From Armatimonadota bacterium (GTDB lineage: Bacteria; Armatimonadota; HRBIN16): a stretch of 64,000 bases of DNA. Of this stretch, positions 46,423 to 64,000 are shown piece after piece. Under the pieces are notes generated by a model. That model saw only the letters and a list, made by a program, of their open reading frames with translations. It had not been told where the DNA came from and did not search any database. Made by a program: the position numbers and the translations under genes. Every line of letters starts with the position of its first letter. Positions within the stretch are counted from its first letter, which is position 1. The DNA is taken from assembly GCA_026003195.1 (NCBI GenBank), contig BPGU01000001.1, forward strand, positions 605,398 to 669,397, written 5' to 3'.

Positions 46423-47655
46423 ATGAGATATTGGGGAGTGGACATAGGGAAAGAAGTGATTGTCGGTGTAGCCAGAGATGAGACTGGGCAGATTGTTGCC
46501 AGGCATACGGCAAAAAACGATGCGGACTTAGCCAAAAAGATAGACCCTGAAGATACTGTGGCGTGCGAATGGACAGGCGGGCGAGGCAGAATCTTTCTGG
46601 AAACGCTCTGGTCAAAAGGCGCCAGACATCTCTACATCTACAAAGGCAACCTCAGGGCTGACCGTCAGCATCTCGGCTACATGCGCAAAGGTGACTTGCC
46701 CGACGCTGAAACCATCTCGTATGCAGTATGGGCGTCTTTTCAGCCGAACATACCGTTTCGTCCAAACGCGCTGATGAATTACCTCGACATGCGAGAGGTG
46801 TATGAACTGCGCGTAGATCTGGGCGTTGCAGAACAATACACAAAGGAGAGACTGCGCTGGCAGCAAAGGCGAGAGGCATTATTGGCAAAGGGGCTTCCTG
46901 CCACTGTCTATGCCACAACACTCTCCTTCCTCCAGCAGCAAGAAGAGGAATCATGGAACACCCTTCGCCGGAAGTGCATGCAAAACGAAAGCGTCGTGGA
47001 AGTCATGCGCATCCTGCTCCACTTTTTCCCGCGAGGCGACAGAGCGGTGATCAAGTTAGCTCTCCATATTGCACCGTTGGAGAGGTTTAGTTCTGAATCT
47101 GCCTTGCAGCGTTACTGTGGAGTGTTGCCTGAAAGCGCTGAAAGCGGTGGGCACATCATCTATCGCAAACGCGGGCGCAGTGGGAGCAAGCAAGCACGGG
47201 TAGCCATGTATCAGCTGCTGATGCCCAGCATTACCATCGGCAACGGGGTAAACGGAAGCAGGCGCGGGAAGTGGCGCGATTATTACGACAAGTTAAGGCG
47301 CAGGCTATCAGATGGTGAGGCATGGATACGCATGATGTATCGCTTACTGCATCTGGTTTGGAAAGCTTACAGACGAGGTGAATACCAGCAACCACTACCG
47401 GCAGAGCGCAGGCAGTCGAGACACGCACGCAAACTGGCACTTCAGCAAGAGGTTTTAGAAAAGGTACTTCAGGGTTACGACGACAACTCCATAGCGCGTT
47501 TACTTGGCATAAGCCCAAGCACCATCACTAAGTGGAAGCGCAGAGACGACGTTTTCTGGAAGAGATACGAAGCTGCCAAGAAGGCATTCCTTGAAGAGCA
47601 AATGCGCAATCCAAATACCACACAGGAGGCATCACAGGATGCACACCATCAGTGA
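46423..47655 (+). CDS. IS110-like DEDD recombinase with C-terminal helix-turn-helix
   Basis: A 410-residue recombinase. The RuvC-like DEDD residues are visible: Asp7 (GVDIGKE), Glu49 (CEWTGG), Asp91 and Asp94 (KGDLPDAE), followed by a coiled-coil stretch (125-200) and the Transposase_20-type domain with LQRYCGVLPESAESGG, Ser241 being the expected conserved serine. Unlike typical IS110 proteins it ends with a helix-turn-helix (about residues 345-372, DNSIARLLGISPSTITKWKR) and a charged tail. The gene overlaps the next phage gene by 17 bases. It may act as the phage's integrase. A passenger insertion sequence is the alternative. Confidence 0.8.
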   Translation: MRYWGVDIGKEVIVGVARDETGQIVARHTAKNDADLAKKIDPEDTVACEWTGGRGRIFLETLWSKGARHLYIYKGNLRADRQHLGYMRKGDLPDAETISYAVWASFQPNIPFRPNALMNYLDMREVYELRVDLGVAEQYTKERLRWQQRREALLAKGLPATVYATTLSFLQQQEEESWNTLRRKCMQNESVVEVMRILLHFFPRGDRAVIKLALHIAPLERFSSESALQRYCGVLPESAESGGHIIYRKRGRSGSKQARVAMYQLLMPSITIGNGVNGSRRGKWRDYYDKLRRRLSDGEAWIRMMYRLLHLVWKAYRRGEYQQPLPAERRQSRHARKLALQQEVLEKVLQGYDDNSIARLLGISPSTITKWKRRDDVFWKRYEAAKKAFLEEQMRNPNTTQEASQDAHHQ

Positions 47656-48008: not shown

Positions 48009-48278
48009 ATGATGCGTTCAGACTGGCAGCTGGAACTGGGCATAGACGAGAAAGAGTTGCACATTATGTCTCCCTGGTTTGCGCTGGCGGAGTTCAACGG
48101 TTGGCGAAAACCATACCCGGCAGTCGACCTGCGCGGGCTACACAGGGAAGAAGCGCTCGCCCGAATGCACCAGATAGCCGACTACTACACCCTCAGAGGC
48201 TGGCGCGTTGTCTGGATATGGAAGGAGGCACAAGATGAAGTACACGACCGAGCAGAAGATTCAGGCATTACGCCGTGA
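48009..48278 (+). CDS. Phage early protein with Smr-like start motif
   Basis: An 89-residue protein. The stretch AVDLRGLHREEALARM resembles the DLHG-like beginning of Smr nuclease domains, but the HGKG motif that should follow is absent, so the resemblance may be chance. GGAGGTGAGAG before ATG. It overlaps the next gene by 44 bases. Confidence 0.5.
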   Translation: MMRSDWQLELGIDEKELHIMSPWFALAEFNGWRKPYPAVDLRGLHREEALARMHQIADYYTLRGWRVVWIWKEAQDEVHDRAEDSGITP

Positions 48279-49410
48279 AATCGCCTTGAGAAAGAACGTC
48301 TACAAAAGGCGGATAGCAGAAGGCAAGATGACGGAGGAACAGGCGCAGAATGAAATAGCCATCATGGAAGAGATTCTGGAAGAATACATCCGCCTCACCT
48401 CTTCATGCGCGGTAGACATAGAATCTCGTCTGGACGCCTTTCTCACGCAGCAAGTGGAAAAGGCACGGGAGCGGGGTTCTGCCTGCGTTGTCCCCAGTGC
48501 CCAGATACTGGAAGCAACCGGATGCGCCCCACGCCAGTTAGGCGCACTCATGCAGGCAAGAGGTTGGGTGCGCGTCTGGATATCGGCGGGCACGCGCGGC
48601 TGGATGTTACCCGTCAGCCGTGTATCCGAATCAGACTCCAACAGTAAACCGATTACTGTTGATGCTGCTGTTAACAGTAAACCGATTACTGTTGATGCTG
48701 CTGTTAACAGTAAACCTGTTACTGTTGATGCTGCTGTTAACAGTAAACCGATTACTGTTGATGATTCCGAATCAGGCTCCAACAGTAAACCCGTTACTGT
48801 TGAAGCACCGGCTAACAGTAAAAGTGTTACTGTTGAATCTCCGGCTAACAGTAAACCCGTTACTGTTGATGCGGGCATTAACAGTAAAAGCGTTACTGTT
48901 GATGATTCCGAATCAGGCTCCAACAGTAAAGCCGTAACTGTGGAGTGTGACCACAGGCTCACCGCCTTGCGCGACCTTGCCCAGCGCATGGACGTGTATT
49001 TGTGGAAACACCTCGCACTGCAGATGGTAGAAAAGATTGAGCAAGAGCGTGTATCGCTCTGTGCTCGCTGCACGCTGGTGAAGAACACCGTGCTCTCCAC
49101 GCGCTACGGCTTCACGGCAGAAGACATGCGCAAAGCGGTTTTGGACGTGCTGGCAAAGAAACCGGAGATGACCCCCCCCACCGAAGACATCTTTGCCCTC
49201 ATTCCTGAAGAGGTGCGCGCGGAATCAGATGTCGTGGTGGAGATTCTGAATCTTCTCGGTGGCGTCGCTTCGCAGGCACAGTTAGAGAAGTCACTGCGCA
49301 AGCGTGGTTACAAACAGCCCTACGACGTTCTCCTGCGTGTCAAGCCCGTGCTTTCGGATTTCGTCAACGTCACTCGCGGGAGTGATGGCGAAGTTTGGAA
49401 GTTGAGATAA
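48235..49410 (+). CDS. Candidate phage replication initiator with in-gene iteron array
   Basis: A 391-residue protein. N-terminus: coiled-coil (1-60) and a winged helix-turn-helix-like region (about 85-128, VPSAQILEATGCAPRQLGAL). Residues 136-236 are a low-complexity linker of 11-residue units (NSKPITVDAAV) coded by nine palindromic DNA repeats. C-terminus (240-391): helices and a second winged-helix-like domain (LGGVASQAQLEKSLRKRG). The layout (DNA-binding N-terminus, linker with DNA repeats, C-terminal domain) is like lambda O, whose gene contains the origin. AAGGAGG sets the ATG at 48235. Function is an inference; no helicase loader was found nearby. Confidence 0.6.
   Translation: MKYTTEQKIQALRREIALRKNVYKRRIAEGKMTEEQAQNEIAIMEEILEEYIRLTSSCAVDIESRLDAFLTQQVEKARERGSACVVPSAQILEATGCAPRQLGALMQARGWVRVWISAGTRGWMLPVSRVSESDSNSKPITVDAAVNSKPITVDAAVNSKPVTVDAAVNSKPITVDDSESGSNSKPVTVEAPANSKSVTVESPANSKPVTVDAGINSKSVTVDDSESGSNSKAVTVECDHRLTALRDLAQRMDVYLWKHLALQMVEKIEQERVSLCARCTLVKNTVLSTRYGFTAEDMRKAVLDVLAKKPEMTPPTEDIFALIPEEVRAESDVVVEILNLLGGVASQAQLEKSLRKRGYKQPYDVLLRVKPVLSDFVNVTRGSDGEVWKLR
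48640..48942 (+). repeat. Nine 21-bp palindromic iterons (AACAGTAA-N5-TTACTGTT) inside a coding region
   Basis: Copies begin at 48640, 48673, 48706, 48739, 48781, 48814, 48847, 48880 and 48922. Spacing is 33 bases except two steps of 42 bases, which insert a DDSESGS-type unit. Arms are invariant in copies 1-8 while the five central bases vary; copy 9 has two changes in its right arm. The arms force T-ending codons (AGT, ATT/GTT, ACT, GTT) that are not needed for the protein, so DNA-level selection is likely. Confidence 0.9.
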
Positions 49411-50110: not shown

Positions 50111-50422
50111 ATGCTGAAACATTTGCTCCGAAACAACCCACCCTTCAGCGACTCGTTAGGCGAGCAGGTATTGCGTGAGTATATGCGCATCCACCGCGGG
50201 GCGGTGGATGCGCTGTGCCAGATGGGCTGTGACCGCGAAGACGTGGAGCAAGACCTGCGCATCCATCTCTGGAGGCAGTGGGAACGTTACGAGTCCGGCA
50301 GCATCAGTTTGCAGCAATGGCTCAGTTGGCGCATGCGTCACAAAATAAGGAGCATGTTGAGGAATGAGCAGAAACGCAGTCGAATTCGTACATGTCCTCT
50401 GGACATCGAAGACTCACAGTGA
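50111..50422 (+). CDS. Sigma-70 region 2-like phage protein
   Basis: A 103-residue helical protein. CDREDVEQDLRIHLWRQWERY-like text (split: DREDVEQDLRIHLW, then SISLQQWLSWRMRHKIRSML) matches the pattern of sigma-70 region 2 (acidic loop, W-x-x-R-M-R). No region 4 follows. Start codon lacks a clear ribosome site. It could drive late transcription or bind core polymerase, and sits just before terminase, where phage late regulators are often found. Confidence 0.5.
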   Translation: MLKHLLRNNPPFSDSLGEQVLREYMRIHRGAVDALCQMGCDREDVEQDLRIHLWRQWERYESGSISLQQWLSWRMRHKIRSMLRNEQKRSRIRTCPLDIEDSQ

Positions 50423-50681
50423 CGCAGCACGCCGTCTCGGCATCAGTCGCACCACCTTCTACAACCGCCTGCGTTCTCCGGCGGTACAGCGCATGATTGA
50501 GGAGATATCGCAGGCGCAGCAGGCACTGCTCACCCTGCGCGAGGCGGAGTTATACGACACGGCGTTACAATCCCTTGCCGACCTTGCCCAGCATGCAGAA
50601 GACCCTCAGGTGCGCATCGAGGCATGTCGCGAACTCATCAAGCATTGCAGGCTTCGGGATGTGTGGGAAATTAGTGAGTGA
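50364..50681 (+). CDS. Terminase small subunit
   Basis: A 105-residue protein with an N-terminal helix-turn-helix (SDAARRLGISRTTFYNRLRSPAVQ) and a helical remainder, the pattern of small terminase subunits that recognise pac/cos DNA. GAGGA lies just before the ATG; it overlaps the previous gene by 59 bases and terminase large by four (GTGA). Confidence 0.75.
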   Translation: MSRNAVEFVHVLWTSKTHSDAARRLGISRTTFYNRLRSPAVQRMIEEISQAQQALLTLREAELYDTALQSLADLAQHAEDPQVRIEACRELIKHCRLRDVWEISE

Positions 50682-51919
50682 ATCGGCGTCGTTTAACAAG
50701 GGAAGCCTTTTTACGCTGTGTAGGCGAATACCATTCTGGTCAGCTGCGGATATGGCAACAGCGAGGCGATGCGCGATTTACCATTCTGCGTTGTGGGCGA
50801 CGTTTCGGCAAGACATCCCTGTTAGCGCGAGAGCTCTTGTGGACGGTGCTCAGAGGGGGCAAAGCGTGGTGGATAGCGCCTCGCCACGCGCTGTGCCGTA
50901 TCGGCTTCAGTTACGTTGAAAAGTTGTCCTGCAATCTTCCCGTATCCATTCGGCAACGAATACGCTTCTGGCGCAGTGCTCCTTACCGCATTCGCTACGG
51001 GCGAGGCGAAGCCGAGTTTTACTCCACCTCCAACCCCGACAACTTGCAAGGTGAAGGCAACGACCTGGTGATTTTTGACGAGGCAGCGACCGAAGAGGAT
51101 GGGGATCTGATTGTAGACCAGTATATCCTTCCCACCTTGTTAGACCGTCACGGCAAGCTGATTATCGCCAGCACGCCCAAGGGCAGGAACTGGTTTGCCG
51201 AATGGTGCGCTCGCCCTGAGTTTGTAGAGTTAGTCGCCACCACCTACGACAACCCCCTCATAGACCGAGCCGACATCGACGCAATGCGTGAGCGCATGAC
51301 GGAGCAGGCGTTTCGCCAGGAGATTTTGGCGGAGATAGTGGAGGAGACTGGCAGGTATTGGGACGTACTGCCCGTTGCCAGCGACTGGGAAGTGACAGGC
51401 GAAGCAGAAGTGTGCGGAATAGACTGGGGCATAGCCAGTCCGTTCGCGGCGGTATGGCTGTTCCGCAGAGGCGAAGAGGTGCACGTCCTGCACGAGGTCT
51501 ACGGTTCTGGTATGGACGCCGACGTGCAGGCGAAGTTAATATTGCGCGGTCCGCGGGCGAAGCGATATGTATGCGACCCCTCCACGCCGGAGCACGTGTT
51601 GCGGGTATGGCACAACGCAGGCTTACATCCACAGCCTGGCTCGCGCGACAGGGTAGGCGGCTGGATGCTCTTGCGCATCATGATACGCGACGGTCACCTG
51701 CGCGTGCATCCACGCTGTTTCAACCTCTTACGCGAATTTGAAGAGGCGCAGGTGGACCCTCGCGCTCCCAGCGATATAGTGAATGACGACCACGCTCTGG
51801 ACGCTCTCCGCTACGCTATCATAGCCTTGCCTCCGTCGCGCAAGCAGAGGCAGATGAGCGTAGAGGAGTGGCTACGGGTTCGGGCGCGCAGGGAGTATCT
51901 CAGGAGAACGGGCTCATGA
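50678..51919 (+). CDS. Terminase large subunit
   Basis: A 413-residue packaging motor: Walker A CGRRFGKT (residues 39-46), Walker B LVIFDEAAT, a coupling motif (IIASTPKG), and the RNase-H nuclease domain with the first Asp in GIDWGIASP and a late acidic cluster in NDDHALDALRYAI. It pumps DNA into the prohead through the portal and cuts the concatemer. GTG start overlaps the small subunit stop. Confidence 0.92.
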   Translation: MNRRRLTREAFLRCVGEYHSGQLRIWQQRGDARFTILRCGRRFGKTSLLARELLWTVLRGGKAWWIAPRHALCRIGFSYVEKLSCNLPVSIRQRIRFWRSAPYRIRYGRGEAEFYSTSNPDNLQGEGNDLVIFDEAATEEDGDLIVDQYILPTLLDRHGKLIIASTPKGRNWFAEWCARPEFVELVATTYDNPLIDRADIDAMRERMTEQAFRQEILAEIVEETGRYWDVLPVASDWEVTGEAEVCGIDWGIASPFAAVWLFRRGEEVHVLHEVYGSGMDADVQAKLILRGPRAKRYVCDPSTPEHVLRVWHNAGLHPQPGSRDRVGGWMLLRIMIRDGHLRVHPRCFNLLREFEEAQVDPRAPSDIVNDDHALDALRYAIIALPPSRKQRQMSVEEWLRVRARREYLRRTGS

Positions 51920-52182
51920 CATTCACCTATCGCTGTTGGCAATGTGGATATTGGGACGCGGAGCATCCAATCGGCAAAGCGCCTTCGCGCATGGAATGTC
52001 CCCGTTGTGGGGCGATAAGCCTGCGGTGTTACAGCTCCTTTTTGTTCTCGGTGCGTCGTGGGCGCACGGACCTGGACGGTTCACATCTGCCCGAAACCCC
52101 TGGTGAGAAAGCCTACTGGCGGGAGCGTGCCGGAGTAGACGTAGACAGGATACAGGTGGCAGTAGATGGCTTTCGGCAATGA
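51916..52182 (+). CDS. Zinc-ribbon protein between terminase and portal
   Basis: An 88-residue protein with CWQC and CPRC pairs (16-20 residues apart) forming a FmdB-like zinc ribbon at the N-terminus and a charged tail. ATG overlaps the terminase stop by ATGA; its end overlaps the portal start by 17 bases. Function unknown. Confidence 0.65.
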   Translation: MTFTYRCWQCGYWDAEHPIGKAPSRMECPRCGAISLRCYSSFLFSVRRGRTDLDGSHLPETPGEKAYWRERAGVDVDRIQVAVDGFRQ

Positions 52183-53374
52183 ATACACCCGCGCGCTGCA
52201 ACAGGCGAAAGAACACCAGCGACTGTGGCGGCAGAAGATTCAGCGGCTGCGCGAGATACTGGCAGGGGTTCCTCGTGGTCAACAGTTATCCCTTAGTGTG
52301 GAAGAAACGCAAACTAACTATGCGCTACTCAACGTTACGCTCAAAGCATTTGCGCTCACGCGCAACATTCGCGGTACGCGAGTCATCTTTCACAACGCAC
52401 CACGCGAGATAGAGTATTGGTTCAACGATGATGTCAAGGGCGTGGCGGTACAGGATTTTCAGGACATGCTCAAAGACCGCTTCGGTTGCGGTATGGGCGT
52501 GCTGGGTATTGGGAGTGATGGCGGTTCGTTTATCCAGTATATAGACCCGTTGGATGTCTGGTGGGACCCCGATTTTGGCTATCGGTCGCCTTCATGGGTC
52601 ATCCGACGCATCCGTCGCGCTCGCAGGGTGGTGTATGAGTACTGGGATACAAACACCCATGCTTTTTTTAATGAAAGCGAAGGCGTGCTGCATGAAGAAG
52701 AGAACCCTCTGCGTATCATTCCGATACGGTTTCTGGAAAACATCTACAGCGTGCCGGGCATTGATTTCCCCAGGAGCGACACCGAGCAGGTCATAGCTCC
52801 ACAGAATCTGATCAGCGAGGCGTTACGGTCTCTGATAGACCAGGCGCGCCGTGGTGTTGGTTTTTTCGAGTATCAAATATCCGCTGTCGATCCTCTGGAG
52901 ATAGAGAAACTGAAAGAGCCTGGCGAGCAATTCGTCGGCACCGAAACCGGCAATGCCATTACCCCCAAAATCACTCCACCACCATCTCCGGAGTGGCTCA
53001 ACATCATCACGATAGCAAAGAACGACATCGACGCACTGAGTGGTGTTTCGGAGTATCTGCGTGGCGCGATGCCCGTTGCCAACAACCTGAAATTTGCGAC
53101 GCAGGTACTGGCGGTGATTGGTTCGCAAAACATGCGCATAGATGCGGACTGGGTGCCCGTCAAGGAGTTGTTGGAGTGGGCTGCATACGTGTGGCTCTCA
53201 GTTGCCCATGTCAACCGGGAACGACACAGAGTGAACGATATAGTTATTGACGCCAGCACGATAGACATATCGCAGGTCAGCGTGAAATGTGAGGAGGATG
53301 AGAATGCGTTTTCCGTTTCTTCGGTCGGAATCACTCCCGACGACATTGCCAGCACCTTCGCCGGAGGCTCCTGA
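52166..53374 (+). CDS. Portal protein
   Basis: A 402-residue protein placed right after terminase, with a portal-like pattern: early helical/Trp region (YNLQ-type start), FGCGMGVLGIGSDGGSF, IDPLDVWWDPDFG, then helical segments and a long C-terminal part with NLKFATQVLAVIG. Portals form the DNA entry ring. No signal or membrane segment. The assignment rests on position and on the PLDVWWDP segment; sequence identity cannot be checked here. Confidence 0.75.
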   Translation: MAFGNEYTRALQQAKEHQRLWRQKIQRLREILAGVPRGQQLSLSVEETQTNYALLNVTLKAFALTRNIRGTRVIFHNAPREIEYWFNDDVKGVAVQDFQDMLKDRFGCGMGVLGIGSDGGSFIQYIDPLDVWWDPDFGYRSPSWVIRRIRRARRVVYEYWDTNTHAFFNESEGVLHEEENPLRIIPIRFLENIYSVPGIDFPRSDTEQVIAPQNLISEALRSLIDQARRGVGFFEYQISAVDPLEIEKLKEPGEQFVGTETGNAITPKITPPPSPEWLNIITIAKNDIDALSGVSEYLRGAMPVANNLKFATQVLAVIGSQNMRIDADWVPVKELLEWAAYVWLSVAHVNRERHRVNDIVIDASTIDISQVSVKCEEDENAFSVSSVGITPDDIASTFAGGS

Positions 53375-53738: not shown

Positions 53739-54665
53739 ATGGCAATCAACTTTGACAGCAGTCTTTACGCAACCGCCGTAGGTCAATGGCTATCGGAGAA
53801 CTTCGAACCGCAGTTCGCGCGCCTGCGTTCAGTGTTTGCCAAACTGCAGACGGACGGCGCCATCAAGGTAGGTGGAGCCTACCTGCTCGCTCCTGTCAGC
53901 AAAGACAAAAACCCGAGCGTGCAGGGAGTGGCGAACTTCGCATCGGCGATGTCCATCCCCGCAGACCAGGGCGTCGGCGCGCAGTATAACTGGTCCTGGT
54001 ATGAAGGATTGACCGCCATCAACAAAGCGGAGGAGATGGCTACCGAAGGCGAAGCCGCCATGGTGGACCTGCTCGAATCCCGTTTGAACGAGACCATTGC
54101 GAGTTTTGTGGAGGTGGTCAACACCGACCTGTTCTCGACCACCGACGCCTCCCAGAGCAAAATCGCTGGGCTGCCCTATGCTCTGGACACCACCGGCTCC
54201 TTCGGCGGTATCGACCGTAGCACCAACACCTGGTGGCAGGCGCAAAACGAGAGTGCGGTAGGAGCCGTCACGCTTGCCAAAATCAACCGCATGTATAACA
54301 AATGCCAGAGCAGAGGAGGCACCCCACCGTCCCTGATTGTCATGCCAGAAGACATCTTCGGCAGCTACGAATCGCTTTTGCAGGCATCCCAGCAGTTTGT
54401 CAAGGACGGCAAACTGGCAGATCTGGGATTTACCGCATACCTGCACAAAGGCGCCACCGTGCTGTTTGACAACGCTTGCCCTGCTGGCACGGTGTTGTAT
54501 GTCAACACACGGCACACTTACCTGGTAGCAATGAGCAAACAGCCGGACGCCGTTCCTGTGCAGTTCCCTGACCGTCCGGTCAAAGGCTATTTGCACACCT
54601 GGGCGATTGCTCTGGTGAGCAGGCGGTTGAACGCCAACGGAAGGCAAACAGGCGTCACACCGTAA
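53739..54665 (+). CDS. Major capsid protein (HK97-like fold, by position)
   Basis: A 308-residue protein after the scaffold-like gene, with AAGGAGG before ATG. Features seen: N-terminal helix (SSLYATAVGQWLSENFEP), GVQGVANFASAM, ESRLNETIASFVEVVNTDLF, a P-domain-like LIVMPEDIFGSYESLL and C-terminal TWAIALVSRR. These fit phage major capsids of short-tailed types. Copies would form the procapsid with the portal. Confidence 0.8.
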   Translation: MAINFDSSLYATAVGQWLSENFEPQFARLRSVFAKLQTDGAIKVGGAYLLAPVSKDKNPSVQGVANFASAMSIPADQGVGAQYNWSWYEGLTAINKAEEMATEGEAAMVDLLESRLNETIASFVEVVNTDLFSTTDASQSKIAGLPYALDTTGSFGGIDRSTNTWWQAQNESAVGAVTLAKINRMYNKCQSRGGTPPSLIVMPEDIFGSYESLLQASQQFVKDGKLADLGFTAYLHKGATVLFDNACPAGTVLYVNTRHTYLVAMSKQPDAVPVQFPDRPVKGYLHTWAIALVSRRLNANGRQTGVTP

Positions 54666-57099: not shown

Positions 57100-57216
57100 G
57101 TGGACGACTTGCTGTTGACCATTACCGTCAAGATGGTTCTCTCCTTCATCGGCGGCTGGTTACTCGGATTCGTGGCAGGATTGACGTTCAATGTTCAAGA
57201 CGGTAGTCAAGAATAG
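57100..57216 (+). CDS. Possible second small membrane protein of lysis cassette
   Basis: A 38-residue frame with GTG start, one membrane helix (residues 11-29, KMVLSFIGGWLLGFVAGLTF) between holin and amidase; its last 26 bases overlap the amidase gene. Ribosome site is weak. Could be a spanin-like or holin-associated protein, or not expressed. Confidence 0.32.
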   Translation: MDDLLLTITVKMVLSFIGGWLLGFVAGLTFNVQDGSQE

Positions 57217-57646
57217 CCCAAACCATTCCGATCGTGGTGGAGTAACGGTAGATACCATCATGGTTCACTCCACCGGCGGTTCTCTACGTGGCAGTTTGGA
57301 GTGGTTGTGCAATCCCAACAGCAAGGTCTCTGCCCATTACCTGATTGCACGTGATGGTACGGTATACAAGCTGGTTCCTACCGGCAGGGCGGCGTGGCAT
57401 GCGGGTAAGTGTAGAGTGCCTGATGCGAATCGCAGGTCAATAGGCATCGAGATGGAGCAACTCTACGGTGATGAGTGGACGGAAGCACAGCGAGAGACTC
57501 TGCTTCGTCTCATCGCCGTGCTGAAGCGTGCAGTACCTTCCATCAAGTATCTCGTCGGGCATCGGGAATGGAACAGTAGCAAGATTGATCCGTATCGGAT
57601 GGATATGGACGAACTCAGGAAGCAGACTGGACTGGAGAAGCTATGA
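57191..57646 (+). CDS. N-acetylmuramoyl-L-alanine amidase (endolysin)
   Basis: A 151-residue single-domain amidase (Amidase_2/T7 lysozyme-like). His26 (MVHSTGG), AHYLIARDG, GRAAWHAGK, IEMEQLYG and VGHREW with KIDP provide the zinc site and catalytic residues. It cuts the MurNAc-L-Ala bond of peptidoglycan after holin opens the membrane. No cell-wall-binding domain. Confidence 0.87.
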   Translation: MFKTVVKNSPNHSDRGGVTVDTIMVHSTGGSLRGSLEWLCNPNSKVSAHYLIARDGTVYKLVPTGRAAWHAGKCRVPDANRRSIGIEMEQLYGDEWTEAQRETLLRLIAVLKRAVPSIKYLVGHREWNSSKIDPYRMDMDELRKQTGLEKL

Positions 57647-63723: not shown

Positions 63724-64000
63724 AGCGCACGCCACAGCAAACACAGTTTGCGCGGCAGGCTTTGCAGTTCTTCCTGAAACTCTACGAAGGCAAGCCGTTG
63801 CCCGAAGGAGCACAATTGCTCTCAGTTTTGCAACGTGTTTTCTTTCCGGGCAAGCGCAAACTGAGCGCAGAGGAGGCGCGCTGGGTAGCTCAGCAATTGA
63901 TTGAATCGCGCCGTCCGTCGCTGGCAGGCACGCTCTGGCGCATCATCACCCGTCCCGAAGATGCTCGTCCCGAAGCGGACATCACCCGCCCGGCGCGAGA
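63720..64000 (+). CDS. Phage protein, 3' truncated by window
   Basis: A frame of 93 residues still open at the edge, beginning in ATGA overlap with the coiled-coil gene. Basic, helical (FARQALQFFLKLYEGK). Function not recognisable; likely continues the internal-protein block. Confidence 0.5.
   Translation, partial: MKRTPQQTQFARQALQFFLKLYEGKPLPEGAQLLSVLQRVFFPGKRKLSAEEARWVAQQLIESRRPSLAGTLWRIITRPEDARPEADITRPAR

Follow-up and report, generated by a model that had tools for sequence, protein, structure and literature searches.

Does the row of palindromic repeats inside one gene of the 64,000-nt stretch of Armatimonadota DNA analysed here (hereafter the window) mark the replication origin of the mobile element that carries it? 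The initial annotation, made from the letters alone, proposed an origin placed as in the λ O gene. Pattern and repeat scans found the nine units inside the gene exactly where they had been annotated, at 48640-48942 on the forward strand. They are 21-bp iterons of the form AACAGTAA-N5-TTACTGTT; eight match perfectly (48640-48660, 48673-48693, 48706-48726, 48739-48759, 48781-48801, 48814-48834, 48847-48867 and 48880-48900), and the ninth (48922-48942) departs from the pattern at two positions of the right arm (TAACTGTG), so that "invariant", the word first used for the arms, is slightly too strong. The described recurrence every 33 nt (twice 42), near whole helical turns, was reproduced: start-to-start spacings are 33, 33, 33, 42, 33, 33, 33 and 42 nt, or 3.1 and 4.0 turns at 10.5 bp per turn. 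All nine units share one codon phase, in agreement with their having been called in frame, and are translated as NSK[P/S/A][I/V]TV. Units 1 and 2 are identical over their full length, and three of the spacers are identical. Chance is ruled out as the source of the array, since the expectation for the window at up to three mismatches is 0.05 and none of 100 shuffles contained nine units. The array forms one contiguous block that is 55-59% AT, flanked within 500 nt by DNA of 34-54% AT and by no AT-rich tract, and the suggested GC-skew check found no turn of the cumulative skew there.

The gene (48235-49410, +; 391 aa) begins 6 nt after a GGAGG sequence and is marked as a candidate initiator gene by its array and by the synonymous-shuffle test described below. 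Both ends of its product had been thought to resemble winged helices. This is borne out for a stretch of 79 residues adjoining the array on its upstream side (aa 57-135; 48403-48639, +), which AlphaFold2, given this stretch alone, models as a winged helix of order H-E-H-H-E-E (pLDDT 86.2, pTM 0.73); the N-terminus (48235-48402, +) is instead modelled as a helical hairpin. VIA-align places the predicted winged helix at Z 5.6-6.8 to winged-helix proteins among others, a general fold level; MarR regulators, CtsR and Orc subunits are among its structural neighbours, all at modest Z, and Foldseek returned no match to it at E ≤ 0.001. The C-terminal region (48943-49407, +) has no relatives in the homologue searches and is modelled too poorly to call, as is the whole protein (pLDDT 53). 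No Pfam, PHROG, NCBIfam or PDB sequence match assigns the protein to an initiator family, the O family included, so that the label "phage initiator-like" finds no backing from protein families, and the Pfam scan detected no ATPase, PrimPol or AAA_25 domain in it.

Orthologues were sought in 291 genomes of the phylum, in viral contigs and in phage records, and none was found; the matches in the 291 genomes were the protein's own genome, the linker only of a protein in the sister genome G006, and two weak N-terminal matches (G135 and G186) that looked unrelated on inspection. The hairpin has a partial relative closer to home. The first 66 aa are 55% identical to a stand-alone 67-aa gene on contig C8 of G000, and this small gene lies beside an O-like initiator belonging to a third prophage of the host. 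The O-like gene (L006:91-936) matches phrog_9773 at 1e-5 and carries about four direct repeats (CTCCGAACYAGTTGCGAGA) after its N-terminal part (direct score 68 versus a null maximum of 34; inverted repeats not significant).

The gene belongs to a prophage-type element of 20,331 bp (46343-66673) that crosses the window end at 64000. Its ends are exact, as they are defined by the empty site in the sibling genome G003, and the junctions share a 3-4 nt core (TATC). Family scans identified terminase, portal, head and lysis genes, all on the forward strand: small terminase subunit (50364-50681; phrog_2538, 1.4e-4), large terminase subunit (50678-51919; phrog_2, 1.6e-40), portal protein (52166-53374; phrog_1216, 3.2e-4), major head protein (53739-54665; phrog_9953, 1.2e-29) and amidase endolysin (57191-57646; phrog_1794, 1e-22). 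A small sigma-70 region-2-like protein (50111-50422, +) adjoins the small terminase and is common to the second element discussed below (44-54% identity; copies at G006:C2:1195023-1195352 and G000:C1:542851-543201). The scans covered 21 of the element's proteins and recognised no helicase, primase or polymerase in this set. The array is the strongest repeat of the element, with 430 8-mer pairs in its best 300-nt segment versus 17 in the best segment elsewhere.

The same sites occur in a different gene. In G006, an 811-aa protein that is unrelated to the window protein, with PrimPol and AAA_25 domains confirmed by Pfam, has four perfect units in its linker, read in the same codon phase; a 41-nt block of the window array (48892-48932, +) is identical to the linker of this PrimPol gene in G006 and in G000, and the two elements reside in one genome. 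Since the window protein has no orthologue, the suggested search of related initiator genes could be made only on these units, and there the arms are kept. Within the 4.58-Mb host genome the sites are confined to two genes, one of them a replication gene: perfect copies are the eight of the array and one at C1:540330 in the second element, and allowing two mismatches adds, besides the ninth unit, one further and unrelated place. A host regulon is ruled out, as no perfect sites lie elsewhere in the host genome. Pattern matches in Methanogenium and Trichormus genome contigs are not in arrays and were judged to be chance, and the viral contigs gave no match.

Besides the sigma-region-2-like protein, the two elements have in common a large protein of weak similarity, with little else detected. 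The second element of G000 is near-identical to that of G006, with a linker garbled by small insertions; its frame-breaking 6-nt centres were dropped as proof of a DNA-only role because insertions are scattered relative to G006 through the same stretch (L001:1389-1521; G000:C1 ~540.2-540.4 kb), and the frame breaks are probably assembly noise. The G006 linker also holds the word CGGAA(A/C)C in both orientations, and CGGAAACTA belongs to this PrimPol gene's own word set. Those words lie between the palindromes and the winged helix, which the palindromes do not touch, so the palindromes may serve another reader there.

Arrays of short words placed after a winged helix proved to be widespread among relatives of the G006 protein, which a search at E ≤ 1e-8 found in 39 of the 291 genomes; directly behind the winged helix, their genes carry, likewise in both orientations, TGTAGAA, GTAGACA, TTCTCAA, CGGTGAA, ATTCTCA and other words. 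Synonymous shuffling (200 shuffles) was applied to 26 relatives, the window gene and four window controls; of the 30 loci with a PrimPol match, L038, L074, L078, L080 and L088 lay outside this test owing to cut or short ORFs (L078 entered the whole-locus analysis below instead), and L094 had no usable ORF for the match. Eleven genes were classed as AAA_25 with linker, by Pfam for the five scanned and by match position for the others. All 11 exceeded every shuffle in direct repeats and 10 did so in inverted repeats (L066 being the exception), with the peak at the linker. The eight genes classed by eye as D5-type stayed within the shuffles for direct and inverted repeats alike. Of the seven other genes, L082 and L086 exceeded them in both and L089 in direct repeats, and among the controls the large terminase was just above its shuffles in the direct measure (25 versus 24). 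The AAA_25 gene of pATHE01, an 8.3-kb free plasmid of Caldicellulosiruptor bescii, likewise has an in-gene array in both orientations (inverted 97 versus a null maximum of 30; direct 147 versus 64). It differs from the window gene in its word, its PrimPol/AAA_25 protein and the cysteine-rich end that follows the linker, and the accessible part of PMC3643907 contains no mapping of its origin.

In a whole-locus scan of 12 further relatives, the array falls on or closely follows the stop codon downstream of the winged helix in five (L082, with 11-nt spacing; L078; L095, a Tsukamurella plasmid; L096; L099), and none was seen 3′ of the winged helix at L079, L087, L089, L090, L097, L098 and L100. 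Viral contigs scanned with an alignment of the AAA_25-winged-helix region yielded 96 relatives, and 80 of them were retained (L195-L198 were left out of the locus analyses). The strongest repeat exceeded all 20 shuffles in 64 of the 80, and in 54 it also lay between -60 and +320 nt of the estimated winged-helix end, an interval that makes up about a tenth of the scanned stretch; the other 26 do not follow this position rule. By midpoint, 19 of the 54 arrays are in the ORF, 34 after the stop and one in a locus without a stop, with L154 and L177 counted as coding by midpoint and starting after the stop on inspection. Dereplication at 80% identity dropped 22 loci and kept 58. In 12 of these no peak rises above the shuffles; of the 46 that are significant, 38 have the peak near the winged-helix end (11 coding, two of which begin past the stop on inspection, and 27 non-coding) and eight have it elsewhere. 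Spacing is a multiple of three in all nine coding arrays with direct pairs and in 20 of 27 non-coding ones, so the 9-nt habit seems intrinsic to the arrays and would ease reading-through. A literature search that covered few subscription papers found no published description of iterons inside PrimPol/AAA_25 genes.

Layout, neighbors and constraint on the DNA (treated below) together point to an initiator that has no helicase of its own and an origin inside its gene, and it is quite probable that the window array is the iteron origin of the 20.3-kb prophage, read by the winged helix of the protein in whose gene it lies. The array would then act in cis as a DNA site within the very gene that encodes its initiator. 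The winged helix coded just upstream would bind the 21-bp palindromes, probably as one dimer per site, the DNA could be wrapped or melted by the nine bound copies, and recruitment of the host helicase and primase would fall to the N- or C-terminal parts of the protein, a step proposed because neither enzyme was recognised in the element; for the C-terminal region in particular we infer a role in helicase or loader recruitment. As the ORF reads through the site, unit spacing is held to multiples of three and the linker becomes a series of NSKxVTV repeats. The assignments of the protein as initiator, of the winged helix as reader and of the array as origin are inferred together. The candidate status given to the origin by the initial annotation gains from the AAA_25 comparison and from the O-like initiator of the third prophage with its in-gene repeats.

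The layout matches one already known, of which the window array would by analogy be a variant. According to the portions available of PMC7466680 and PMC6022878, the λ origin lies mid O gene with four iterons, and Stx phages have six, with an O longer by 13 residues; the number of iterons in O varies and alters protein length in frame (PMC7466680, in the part available). The window gene is like λ and Stx O in having its iterons inside the gene, in having in-gene repeats constrained as DNA and in coding for a predicted DNA-binding domain before the repeats, so the likeness to λ O that had been pointed out stands. Unlike λ, it has nine 21-bp palindromes at 33/42-nt spacing, no adjoining AT-rich melting tract, no sequence relation that was found and an extra N-terminal hairpin.

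A second parallel is the rep-ori region of SaPI and PICI elements and SCCmec Cch2, where iterons directly follow the code for a C-terminal DNA-binding domain (PMC6092414, PMC7581432). As far as the sections available of these papers describe them, a PICI origin directly follows the initiator gene on its 3′ side and consists of two sets of iterons with an AT-rich region between them (PMC6092414), and the C-terminal domain of SaPI Rep, like Cch2, reads the 3′ origin site (PMC7581432). AAA_25 relatives share this layout, some with an AT-rich middle, and L192-L194 (words, then an AT-rich stretch, then inverted words) match the published PICI origins. Whereas the SaPI/PICI origin comes after the gene, in the window gene and several AAA_25 genes the ORF runs through the array; the initiator of a rep-ori replicon is moreover a helicase or primase-helicase, a domain the window protein lacks, and the window array is one contiguous block, not two iteron sets. 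To the PrimPol plus AAA_25 (RepA-type) initiators the window gene is tied by the same 21-bp sites in G006 and G000 and by their word arrays after the winged helix, but it has neither of their domains. In PolpTN2, a winged helix has been speculated to be the origin reader (PMC5862659, from the part available).

The main competitor is that the palindromes are operators or a partition or incompatibility/copy-control site, and the protein a winged-helix regulator that binds them. A 21-bp dyad would suit a dimeric regulator, MarR-type regulators are among the nearest folds, and in the PrimPol gene the palindromes adjoin another word array that itself resembles the origin proper. However, nine sites some 400 nt into a gene are unlike an operator, and the AAA_25 pattern, taken with published analogues whose origins, in the parts available of PMC6092414 and PMC7581432, occupy that same place, favors origins; we regard a regulatory site as unlikely, if still the first alternative to consider.

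Reading of the words by the adjacent winged helix is suggested by comparisons in which both change together. Between G006 and G001, whose words differ, the protein match is about 90% over PrimPol and AAA_25, falls in the winged helix (14/28 and 8/20) and the linker (5/16), and rises again over the cysteine-rich end. The pair L075/L076 behaves in the same way; in L062/L063 both the winged helix and the words have stayed similar. Pairs with 55-75% AAA identity, which are not independent of one another, were drawn from 63 loci: 9 of the 11 whose winged helices are at least 50% identical have a repeated word in common, against 5 of 15 at 35-50% and none of 19 below 35%; words thus appear to co-vary with the winged helix, differing where it differs. 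This bears on a joint proposal, which we advance tentatively and rate at somewhat under even chances: winged-helix initiators are swappable cassettes with their own 3′ origin words, and the 21-bp iteron set has been transferred between initiator genes that are unrelated and belong to two prophages of the same host. Winged helix and sites would travel together, so that the origin could be read off the gene, and after the move of the iterons one prophage could fire, tax or block replication of the other.

Exchange of sites between the elements could also mean that their reader comes from the other element or from a helper, and that the window array is a case of iteron piracy or a decoy. The 41-nt block identical in two unrelated genes of elements resident in one genome fits such a history, as do the sigma-like protein common to both elements and the want of a recognised helicase, primase or polymerase in the window element. 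The window protein nonetheless has its own winged helix beside the sites, and the exchanged block could stem from passive recombination, which makes a foreign reader rather improbable, more so than the regulatory site.

Whether the repeats matter as DNA at all was judged from 13 units, the nine of the window gene and the four of the G006 PrimPol gene. Their arms are changed at 2 of 208 sites and their centres at 20 of 65 (Fisher 4e-12), and the 12-nt spacers of the six 33-nt window units at 14 of 72 (1.5e-7 against the arms); as the units are related by duplication the counted sites are not fully independent, and it is the contrast of arms with the rest that counts. Threonine is encoded by ACT in 13 of 13 units and in 1 of 15 cases elsewhere in the window gene, in accord with the remark that the arms keep T-ending codons. 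Synonymous shuffles of the gene gave a mean of 20 and a maximum of 50 inverted 7-mer pairs versus 188 observed, and a mean of 54 and a maximum of 96 direct pairs versus 434 observed; neither observed count was reached in any of 200 shuffles. Constraint on the iteron arms as DNA, which had been argued from third codon bases, is thus supported at the sequence level. The contrary view, that the array is a repeat linker kept at the protein level with DNA identity due merely to recent duplication or gene conversion, can point to the three identical spacers as a sign that part of the array is young; but changes avoid the arms and gather in centre and spacer, synonymous shuffles fail to reproduce the repeats, and comparable arrays lie outside ORFs at AAA_25-type loci, so that it has very little left in its favor.

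An array acting as RNA, with hairpins or TIGR-like guide units for the nearby IS110-family protein, is the least credible reading, for although each unit would form an 8-bp stem with a 5-nt loop, an IS110-type gene lies 1 kb upstream, and TIGR units are likewise repeats of 8-12 nt (PMC12045711, in the portion available), a TIGR array consists of two alternating repeats with ~9-nt variable spacers beside a Nop-domain gene, whereas the window array has 5-nt centres and 12/21-nt, partly identical spacers, repeats its first unit unchanged in the second, contains no CTGA, lies wholly inside an ORF and, in the second element, has its counterpart next to a gene that by eye resembles a tyrosine recombinase and not IS110.

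If the origin reading is true, origins of a large and mostly unmapped class of mobile elements could be located from sequence alone, winged-helix specificity could be predicted from the adjacent words, and the window gene would be an example of DNA sites dictating a protein linker. An iteron set common to unrelated initiators would also allow cross-talk in replication between prophages of one host to be tested directly.

The IS110-family DEDD transposase with C-terminal HTH (46423-47655, +) at the left end of the element matches Pfam Transposase_20 (9.5e-8) and DEDD_Tnp_IS110 (1.8e-6) and NCBIfam transpos_IS110 (1.3e-15, under that family's curated cut-off), and is the sole recombinase recognised in the 20.3 kb. 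A tailed-phage-type prophage whose only recognised recombinase is of this RNA-guided class is a candidate case of IS110-type phage integration. Both-orientation arrays close behind the winged-helix code of AAA_25 initiators, within the ORF or beyond it, were seen at L026:16700-19135, L062-L066, L072, L075, L076, L081, L084, L093 and the viral loci L115-L194, and a 1006-aa PrimPol-type gene of another class (L086:593-3613) has an array near codon 874 beyond both shuffle nulls. Downstream of the window, at ~79500-97000 (L022, L023), the ORF list includes genes that by eye resemble CRISPR-Cas, together with an array whose repeat translates in frame as GYEPTYKGLK.
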